Assembly: GCF_029338395.1 (NCBI RefSeq)
Contig: NZ_CP119809.1
Span: 62,001 to 126,000 of the forward strand
Source of the DNA: Halorussus caseinilyticus
GTDB taxonomy: Archaea; Halobacteriota; Halobacteria; Halobacteriales; Haladaptataceae
Direction of reading: 5' to 3'
Length of the DNA: 64,000 bases
Position numbers and translations under genes: made by a program. How positions within the stretch are numbered: position 1 is the stretch's first letter; each line of letters starts with the position of its first letter. Below the pieces are notes generated by a model that was given only the letters and a program-made list of their open reading frames with translations, did not search any database and was not told the origin of the DNA. Below are positions 29,857-55,983 of the stretch, piece by piece.

Positions 29857-29939
29857 GTCGAGGCGAACGACCGACTACCAGTTACGCTTTCGGGCGCGAG
29901 CGACTGACTCGTCGCTCACGAGTTGGCGTCGGAAGAAAG

Positions 29940-30012
29940 CGCCCGAGGCGGGATTTGAACCCGCGTCACAACCGTGACAGGGTTGTATGATGGGCCACTA
30001 CACCACCCGGGC
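29940..30012 (-). tRNA. tRNA-Asp (anticodon GUC), copy 1
   Basis: 73 nt on the minus strand. Acceptor GCCCGGG/CTCGGGC; anticodon stem CAACC/GGTTG around CTGTCAC, anticodon GTC; T arm GCGGG-TTCAAAT-CCCGC; discriminator G. Identical to the gene at 30735. Confidence 0.95.
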
Positions 30013-30143
30013 TTCCGAGTGCATACTATCCTTTCGCCGGGCTATATTAATGTATACCGATTTCTTTCTGTTTTGCCTTGTGTTATCACGGGCCGAAATC
30101 CGAACGCATCTTCTATCGAACGAGGAAGAGGCGACTGGAATAT

Positions 30144-30563
30144 TCACGATAACTCGCCGTCAAACTCGTATTCTTCGGCCCAGTTAATCGATGGGTGGTC
30201 TACGTCTGCTTCGAACCGGAGTTCCATTTTCTGCTCAGTCGCTTCTTCGATATCTATCCAGTAGAGCGTCTCGTTTGCTGGATATCTGACGACAAACGCA
30301 TCTACTTCACCGTAGTACGTGTCTTCGTGGTACTCTCCTTCTTTGGTGGTTTGCGAATGAGTGTTGAACCGCATCGTATTTTCTTTATTTCTCCATCCTG
30401 TTTTACACTGAATACGATACAAGTTCTTTCCGTCGTCCGCTATCAGGTCGTACTTGTCGTTATCTCCGAATGGGACCGAGACACTGTATCCGTTCGAAAT
30501 TAACTCGTGGATGACTTTCGCTTCGGTTTCGTCACCTTTGTCCTTCGAGTTGATGGTGCCCAT
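30144..30563 (-). CDS. PD-(D/E)XK homing-type endonuclease (I-Ssp6803I-like)
   Basis: 139 aa. The first half, KGDETEAKVIHELISNGYSV, SVPFGDNDKYDLIADDGKN and LYRIQCKTG, matches the PD-(D/E)XK group-I-intron endonuclease family (PDDEXK_5). Putative active residues are E14, D39 and the QxK pair Q52/K54, with spacing very like that I recall for I-Ssp6803I, an enzyme of a tRNA-fMet intron. It is probably a site-specific nuclease. It is the only gene between two identical tRNA-Asp genes, suggesting the tRNA-Asp locus as target. Codon use is AT-richer than its neighbours, supporting transfer. Confidence 0.8.
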   Translation of the reverse strand: MGTINSKDKGDETEAKVIHELISNGYSVSVPFGDNDKYDLIADDGKNLYRIQCKTGWRNKENTMRFNTHSQTTKEGEYHEDTYYGEVDAFVVRYPANETLYWIDIEEATEQKMELRFEADVDHPSINWAEEYEFDGELS

Positions 30564-30734
30564 CGCTGTTTCAAGTAGCCCGGCCTCTTGTATAATATCG
30601 GCTATTTAGTCGAAAAGGTGGTGGTTATTTTACCTGTACTGCGCGAACGCGCGGCTAACAGAGTTCAGTCTCTTCGTGAGGTAATTACTGGTTATAGAGC
30701 TACGACTTGTCGGAAGATATTTCACGGAAGAAAG

Positions 30735-30807
30735 CGCCCGAGGCGGGATTTGAACCCGCGTCACAACCGTGACAGGGTTGTATGATGGGCCACTACACCA
30801 CCCGGGC
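30735..30807 (-). tRNA. tRNA-Asp (anticodon GUC), copy 2
   Basis: Identical in sequence to 29940-30012, including 12 bp upstream and 10 bp downstream. It lies next to the divergent RNA polymerase operon and may be the ancestral locus. Confidence 0.95.
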
Positions 30808-30923
30808 TTCCGAGTGCATCTCTTCGTTGTCCCCGGTTTAACTTAAGGCTTCTCAAACGAGTCGGCCGCGTCACCGCGTCCCGTGTTTCGACTCCCTGCG
30901 ACACGTGCCCTTGCCCCAAACGA

Positions 30924-55015: not shown

Positions 55016-55627
55016 GTGAGCTACCAGTCGGACGAACTCGACTCGGGGTCCCTCCTCGCCGGAAGCCCGACGGTACAGACGCTCGCGGTGTTTCTGGTCG
55101 TCTTCGCGCTCCAGACGGCCGTGAGATTCGTCTCTCGGAGCCTCGCGTTCGGGCTGTTCGTCCTCGCGTCGCCGGTGTCGGTCCGGCCGTGGACCCTGCT
55201 GGCGAGCGTCTACGCCCACGCCAACGTCACGCATCTCGTCTCGAACGCTATCGTTCTCGTGTTGGTGGGGTTCGCCGTAGAGCGCGTGACGACGACGTGG
55301 CGCTATCACGCCTTCTTCGCCACCGTGGGGATGCTCGCGGGCGTCTCGCAGGTGGTCGTCTCGGGACTCGTCGGACCGGGAACGCCCGTCCTCGGCGCGA
55401 GCGGTGCCGTCTTCGGCCTGCTGGGGTACCTGATCGCGGGCAACCCCGTCACCGACGCGGTGATGGGGTGGCTTCCGCTCGGCGGACGCGCGCGGGTCGC
55501 GCTTCTGTTCGGACTGGCCGCGGGCGCGACCCTGCTCACGGCGTCACCGGGCGTGGCGCTGGTCGCTCACTTCACGGGGTTCGCGCTCGGTCTGGTCGCC
55601 GGGCGCGTTCGACTCCTCCGGGTGTGA
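55016..55627 (+). CDS. Rhomboid intramembrane serine protease
   Basis: 203 aa, about six helices. Motifs HANVTHLVSNAIVL, GASGAVFGLLGYL (catalytic Ser in GASG) and ALVAHFTGFALGLVAG (catalytic His) are canonical. The start is GTG at 55016 (SYQSDELDSGSL); another GTG at 54965 would add 17 residues. The hairpin at 55714 may terminate it. Confidence 0.88.
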   Translation: MSYQSDELDSGSLLAGSPTVQTLAVFLVVFALQTAVRFVSRSLAFGLFVLASPVSVRPWTLLASVYAHANVTHLVSNAIVLVLVGFAVERVTTTWRYHAFFATVGMLAGVSQVVVSGLVGPGTPVLGASGAVFGLLGYLIAGNPVTDAVMGWLPLGGRARVALLFGLAAGATLLTASPGVALVAHFTGFALGLVAGRVRLLRV

Positions 55628-55713
55628 GCTACGGGAGTGTCTAAACATTGCTTAGAGAATGCTAGAACTTTTCTAGACATATGAATATCTGTCCATGACG
55701 GAATTACGGCGGT

Positions 55714-55746
55714 CTCCCGCTCGACGGCCCAACCGACGAGCGGGAG
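55714..55746. terminator. 10-bp hairpin downstream of rhomboid
   Basis: CTCCCGCTCG, 13-nt loop, CGAGCGGGAG. It lies 87 bp after the rhomboid stop in a 262-bp gene-free gap. Confidence 0.4.
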
Positions 55747-55889
55747 TTTCGAGGCAGTCTGTTCCGGCGCTGTTCCCGTCGCGTAGTCGAGAGACGGCGA
55801 CGGCTACGCCTTGCTGAACACTCTCCCCCACGCCCGCCGCGAAACATAAGGTTCTAATAAGTGGGCGCGTTACGAACTACTGCGTTCGC

Positions 55890-55961
55890 GGGCTCGTAGA
55901 TCAGCGGTAGATCGCTTCCTTCGCAAGGAAGAGGCCCTGGGTTCAAATCCCAGCGAGTCCA
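55890..55961 (+). tRNA. tRNA-Ala (anticodon CGC)
   Basis: 72 nt. Acceptor GGGCTCG/CGAGTCC; anticodon stem CTTCC/GGAAG around TTCGCAA, anticodon CGC; T arm CTGGG-TTCAAAT-CCCAG; discriminator A. It is followed by ACTCGATTTT and two hairpins. Confidence 0.95.
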
Positions 55962-55983
55962 CTCGATTTTGCGGGAGCTAACT

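Follow-up and report, generated by a model that had tools for sequence, protein, structure and literature searches.

Why should a haloarchaeal chromosome carry two complete tRNA-Asp genes in identical repeats, with a single nuclease gene between them? The question is raised by a locus in the window, by which we mean the whole 64,000 nucleotide stretch of Halorussus caseinilyticus DNA that was analysed. The reading we favour, with a probability of roughly 0.8, is that the locus is a free-standing homing element which targets tRNA-Asp genes and carries an immune version of that tRNA. The coordinates of the features are given in Table 1.

Table 1. Features of the tRNA-Asp and nuclease locus, in positions of the window.
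Feature	Position	Strand	Remark
tRNA-Asp(GTC), copy 1	30734..30807	-	promoter-proximal side, adjoins rpoH; A28-U42 allele (ACAACC/GGTTGT)
tRNA-Asp(GTC), copy 2	29939..30012	-	downstream of the nuclease gene; A28-U42 allele as in copy 1
Exact 95-bp repeat, copy 1	30725..30819	-	holds a full tRNA-Asp
Exact 95-bp repeat, copy 2	29930..30024	-	holds a full tRNA-Asp
Type I PD-(D/E)XK (PF11645) homing-type nuclease	30144..30563	-	139 aa; invariant E14, D39, Q52, K54
Anticodon stem-loop, tRNA copy 1	30764..30780	-	inverted repeat CAACC-loop-GGTTG; pair 28-42 = 30779 and 30765
Anticodon stem-loop, tRNA copy 2	29969..29985	-	pair 28-42 = 29984 and 29970
Element interior, low GC	30025..30724		type I and type II versions replace each other as one block within the genus
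About 40 bp ahead of tRNA copy 2	30013..30056	-	common to type I and type II loci

The two tRNA-Asp genes are 795 bp apart and the match between the repeats that contain them is far greater than expected by chance. The 700-bp interval separating the repeats has a GC content of 46%, compared to 65% for the window. The nuclease gene is the only homology-supported gene in this interval, in which neither an integrase nor a transposase was found. A preliminary description of the locus had reported the exact repeats with their complete tRNA genes, the lower-GC interior, the lone nuclease and the lack of an integrase or transposase, and had distinguished the duplication of a full tRNA from integrase islands; all of this was confirmed. 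No tRNA-Asp copies beyond these two were found in the whole genome and the nuclease is single-copy. The gene is positioned between two complete tRNA genes and not within a tRNA, unlike a gene encoded in a group I intron of a tRNA. Within the stretch shared ahead of tRNA copy 2 there is an AT-rich, TATA-like sequence at 30043-30056, which is probably the promoter of this copy. A sigma-70 promoter scan and an Rfam search added nothing. Elsewhere in the window, ARAGORN called a tmRNA overlapping tRNA-Ala (55577-55962); it is probably a false positive, and to our knowledge tmRNA is not known from archaea.

The nuclease matches the PDDEXK_5 family (Pfam: PF11645) with an E-value of 1.7e-40 and 138.6 bits, compared to the Pfam cutoff of 26.1. 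Its best solved relative by sequence is the homing endonuclease I-Ssp6803I (PDB: 2ost; E-value 1.1e-5). A fold search with the AlphaFold2 model of the protein (pLDDT 87) also found I-Ssp6803I as the best PDB match (TM 0.77, E-value 2e-9), with Holliday junction resolvases ranking behind. E14, D39, Q52 and K54 are invariant in an alignment with 45 haloarchaeal relatives. By sequence, modelled fold and catalytic residues, the protein is predicted to be an I-Ssp6803I-like PD-(D/E)XK nuclease, as had been proposed before.

Homologs of the nuclease were found in 189 of the 391 haloarchaeal genomes. At the loci read they adjoin a tRNA gene, as a rule on the same strand, and the nuclease clades correspond to the identity of that tRNA (Asp, Pro, Met, Lys, Asn). 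The best 30 homolog loci all adjoin a tRNA-Asp gene on the same strand, with the tRNA upstream in the direction of transcription. Several of these 30 loci have an exact tRNA-Asp copy downstream as well, and most of the loci are in rpoH/rpoB synteny. Many loci have a single tRNA and no downstream copy, which means that the duplication is not essential. More distant nucleases adjoin the tRNAs Pro(TGG), Met(CAT), Gly and Ser. For some distant homologs no tRNA seemed to be nearby, which was an artefact of running ARAGORN without introns; the rerun with introns allowed found Lys(TTT), Asn and Arg(TCT) as further neighbours, with the intron after position 37. There are 13 changes of the tRNA label on the nuclease tree, compared to a mean of 71 for shuffled labels, and the Pro-linked and the Lys-linked nucleases form one clade each. 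At one locus (L140) the nuclease and its tRNA are on different strands, and no tRNA was found near the nuclease of another (L138).

The association extends to viruses. On viral contigs 56 of 71 homologs have a tRNA within 700 bp, 55 of them on the same strand, numbers which are inflated because many of these homologs lie in tRNA clusters. In the haloviruses HSTV-4 and HJTV-3 a tRNA-Asn is positioned 2 bp before the nuclease, and its anticodon stem differs from the tRNA-Asn stem of the haloarchaeal loci read. In a Salmonella phage a tRNA precedes the nuclease by about 20 bp. The plasmid search for the nuclease gave partial, distant matches only. Relatives of the nuclease are frequent inside the tRNA clusters of the viral contigs (L229-L299), where they usually touch one tRNA.

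In the family to which the window genome belongs, a nuclease gene or its remnant adjoins tRNA-Asp in 25 of the 27 genomes having the rpoH/tRNA-Asp site, and in most of these it is flanked by a tRNA copy on either side. Two kinds of nuclease alternate at this site, type I being 67-79% identical to the window nuclease and type II 29-53%; type II forms two clades on the nuclease tree. tRNA-Asp adjoins the nuclease in every type I and type II locus read. On a host tree built from a short stretch of rpoH and rpoB there are at least 23 changes of type, and among close relatives one nuclease type is found in place of another, unrelated one. Inheritance by vertical descent only is ruled out by this switching. 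It had been argued from the window that occupation of all relatives together with vertical divergence would speak against a mobile element; nearly all relatives are indeed occupied, but their divergence is not vertical. At this one site the presence of the nuclease and its type do not follow the host phylogeny, as is characteristic of homing elements.

The exchange can be followed in alignments with two type II congeners (L216 and L209). The 5' flank and the first tRNA align with 91% and 82%, ending 5 bp past the tRNA, the middle is unrelated, and the second tRNA or its 3' end aligns again together with the 3' flank. Within the genus the element interior is a cassette which is exchanged inside homologous flanks. 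The expected empty site has an apparent example in L208, with one tRNA-Asp and no nuclease, but from a different genus, and no genus yielded an empty and a filled site that match in both flanks. Exchange of cassettes at the site is seen directly, and de novo insertion into a single tRNA gene may also take place.

The anticodon-stem pair 28-42 of tRNA-Asp is variable and mostly either A-U (ACAACC/GGTTGT) or G-C (ACGACC/GGTCGT). The allele goes with the type of the adjacent nuclease. For the locus counts duplicates were removed, and intact refers to a full-length open frame and does not imply activity. ACGACC is found in 0 of the 56 intact type I loci, of which 54 have ACAACC, one ACGGCC/GGCCGT and one ATCACC/GGTGAT, and it is found in all 34 intact type II loci. 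Next to type II nucleases, ACAACC is seen only where the nuclease is broken (3 of 10 broken compared to 0 of 34 intact, p 0.009). In a pattern search at the genome level, 62 of 66 type I genomes had A-U, three had other variants and one (G297) had ACGACC, which was present in 253 of the 325 remaining, non-type-I haloarchaeal genomes. The exceptional genome has an intact type I-like nuclease (L168) on a long branch and without TxQKMELRF, a motif that is invariant in the type I alignment. Mismatches to the allele rule are thus limited to broken nucleases and to this one copy lacking the conserved motif. We also took 11 independent host pairs differing in type, on supported branches of the rpoH and rpoB tree; all 11 differ in the allele and in the same direction (sign test, p 0.001). 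Loci with an intact nuclease and at least two tRNA-Asp copies are allele-uniform in 54 out of 54 cases, and mixed loci are found only with a broken nuclease.

In occupied loci the host copy consistently differs from the presumed target of the resident nuclease, which would protect it. The conclusion that type II nucleases spare ACGACC and cut ACAACC is weaker, with p about 0.01-0.02. Both anticodon stem-loops in the window are putative nuclease target sites in the protected form. The preliminary description had suggested a self-sufficient element whose nuclease is aimed at tRNA-Asp and leaves a full tRNA behind. This is strongly supported by the linkage, the swapping and the apparent empty site, but the anticodon-stem allele was missed and with it the main point, that the allele of the element should make its own tRNAs uncuttable and that competing types carry different alleles.

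An alternative is that the nuclease is a weapon serving the host or a virus, which cuts incoming DNA with the other tRNA allele, for example that of a tRNA-bearing virus. In viruses, tRNAs and such nucleases are indeed neighbours, but the frequent decay and replacement at one locus look selfish, and we consider this explanation improbable. Such a role is compatible with homing as a side effect. Still somewhat less probable is that the nuclease and the tRNA allele merely travel together by homologous recombination at a tRNA hot-spot, the allele having no functional meaning. They are separated by no more than 100-500 bp and are swapped together, but position 7 in the acceptor stem of this tRNA shows no link to the nuclease type (Fisher's exact test, p 0.63 compared to 8e-23 for the anticodon-stem pair), and hitchhiking of the whole tRNA is rejected because of this internal control. 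The three different alleles beside type I, all of which avoid ACGACC, the restriction of mixed two-copy loci to broken nucleases, and the recurrence of the pattern in a separate Met-linked clade also argue against a meaningless allele.

Under the homing model, a dimer of the nuclease would read the anticodon-stem inverted repeat in the DNA, and the anticodon stem, being an inverted repeat, would be a natural site for a symmetric dimer. Type I would cut tRNA-Asp genes with ACGACC/GGTCGT and type II those with ACAACC/GGTTGT. Archaea usually have this one Asp tRNA species, and survival of the putative cut in an essential gene would be possible only if the break were repaired from an element-bearing chromosome. 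The repair would copy in the nuclease together with the resistant tRNA or tRNAs, and the tRNA copies on either side may supply homology at both ends. A single compensatory change of the 28-42 pair would be the cheapest route to immunity, because it alters both half-sites at once and keeps the pairing, so that the tRNA can still fold. The recoded tRNA-Asp is indeed linked to the nuclease. After fixation, the nuclease would decay and the site would be open to invasion by another type.

Similar associations were found for other tRNAs. In the main Met-linked clade, the anticodon-stem allele CCTCCG/CGGAGT is present in 15 out of 15 genomes and in 5 out of 35 others (52 genomes of genus g7), and an intron-split tRNA-Lys is present in 5 out of 5 genomes with a Lys-linked nuclease compared to 10 out of 189, where both tests comprise few lineages and the counts ignore relatedness. 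Genome G021 was left out of the Lys count, as its nuclease is L138, the one near which no tRNA was found. Stem alleles also vary between the Pro-linked subclades, in a sample of few genomes. The Lys-linked branch seems to be protected by the intron, which splits the site.

The Lys-linked branch bears on a further alternative, about as improbable as hitchhiking, namely that the protein is a toxin or a defence which acts by cutting tRNA-Asp RNA, with the altered tRNA of the element serving as its antidote. RNA, too, could be shielded by a changed anticodon stem, and phage tRNAs have been proposed to evade tRNA-cutting defences by changes in the anticodon loop (PMC10264068). These phage tRNAs are likewise recoded tRNAs that serve as protection, but there a host RNase acts on RNA (PMC10264068), whereas in the haloarchaeal loci the stem changes and the target would be DNA. 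Fold and active site of the window nuclease match a DNA homing endonuclease. Its gene is located at the presumed target gene and the two are exchanged together, an arrangement for which an RNase has no need. Furthermore, the intron is gone from the mature tRNA-Lys and could protect only the DNA or the precursor. A DNA target is favoured, because spliced tRNA-Lys would stay unprotected from an RNase.

Taking these clades together, we think it somewhat better than an even chance that homing elements of this kind are a widespread natural cleave-and-rescue class in archaea, their viruses and bacterial phages. Each clade would attack its own tRNA and carry a recoded or intron-split uncuttable copy, and the arms race would drive compensatory evolution of the anticodon stem, tRNA duplication and possibly the spread of archaeal tRNA introns.

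Two observations concern the Pro-linked and Lys-linked cases. The Pro-linked loci L055, L057, L067 and L121 have a frame of about 280-330 aa with a second, weaker PDDEXK match directly after the first, which suggests a two-domain protein. The tRNA-Lys(TTT) of the window genome, located outside the window (G000:C1:3269206-3269271), has an intron although no Lys-linked nuclease was found in this genome; the intron is possibly a relic of past protection.

Among known systems, I-Ssp6803I has the same fold, family and D/Q/K active site as the window nuclease, and it targets the anticodon region of a tRNA gene, according to Bonocora and Shub 2001 (cited in PMC3984707). The I-Ssp6803I gene is part of a group I intron which interrupts the site by its insertion, whereas the haloarchaeal gene is free-standing beside tRNA genes and its site is seemingly protected through recoding of the stem in the Asp and Met cases and through an archaeal tRNA intron in the Lys case. 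The phage nuclease SegB is a GIY-YIG enzyme, unlike the PD-(D/E)XK window nuclease, and we know of no allele-specific recoded tRNA which it carries as protection. Like the haloarchaeal nuclease, SegB is a free-standing, intron-less homing nuclease associated with viral tRNA genes (PMC13096335). Synthetic cleave-and-rescue and home-and-rescue drives cut an essential gene and have a recoded uncuttable copy in the same element (PMC7951863, PMC7968924), a logic which the window element would share, but they are engineered with CRISPR in animals, whereas the window element would be natural, protein-only and located at a tRNA gene.

Integrase-type islands are inserted at tRNA genes as well and leave the tRNA functional, but they depend on a tyrosine recombinase, and it is a 3' part of the tRNA that becomes duplicated (PMC8371274). 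It is very improbable that the locus is a decayed island of this type, or that a helper integrase moved the element, with the nuclease as passenger. Integrases often use tRNA genes as their sites, and short 3' fragments of tRNA (nt 52-74) are common near the locus, but the interval has no integrase, the duplicated tRNAs are complete, and this small nuclease is found in many genera and in viruses with its orientation and spacing unchanged.

Our literature search, which covered neither preprints nor most subscription papers, found no prior description of such an element. If the homing model is true, the element would be a natural counterpart of the engineered cleave-and-rescue drives and would provide a cause for compensatory swaps of anticodon-stem pairs in otherwise invariant tRNAs, for odd duplicated tRNA genes in haloarchaea and for the patchy occurrence of tRNA introns. 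It also hints at a reason for the tRNAs of some viruses, which may serve as homing cassettes together with a nuclease.

Besides the complete copies on either side of a nuclease, tandem arrays with as many as four tRNA-Asp copies are found at this locus in five genomes (G357, G378, G092, G034 and G025). Each array has a single allele, and the copies are perhaps layers of past insertions. In addition, 96 short tRNA-Asp fragments were found in 65 of 143 loci, almost all of which start at nt 52 and end at nt 73-74. They are located about 110-150 bp after tRNA-Asp, for example in L005, L009, L036, L040, L054, L104 and L175, and have no Rfam family match. An inverted GGGATTTGAACC arm precedes the fragment and gives a hairpin-like module 3' of the tRNA, which is also present at nuclease-free loci.
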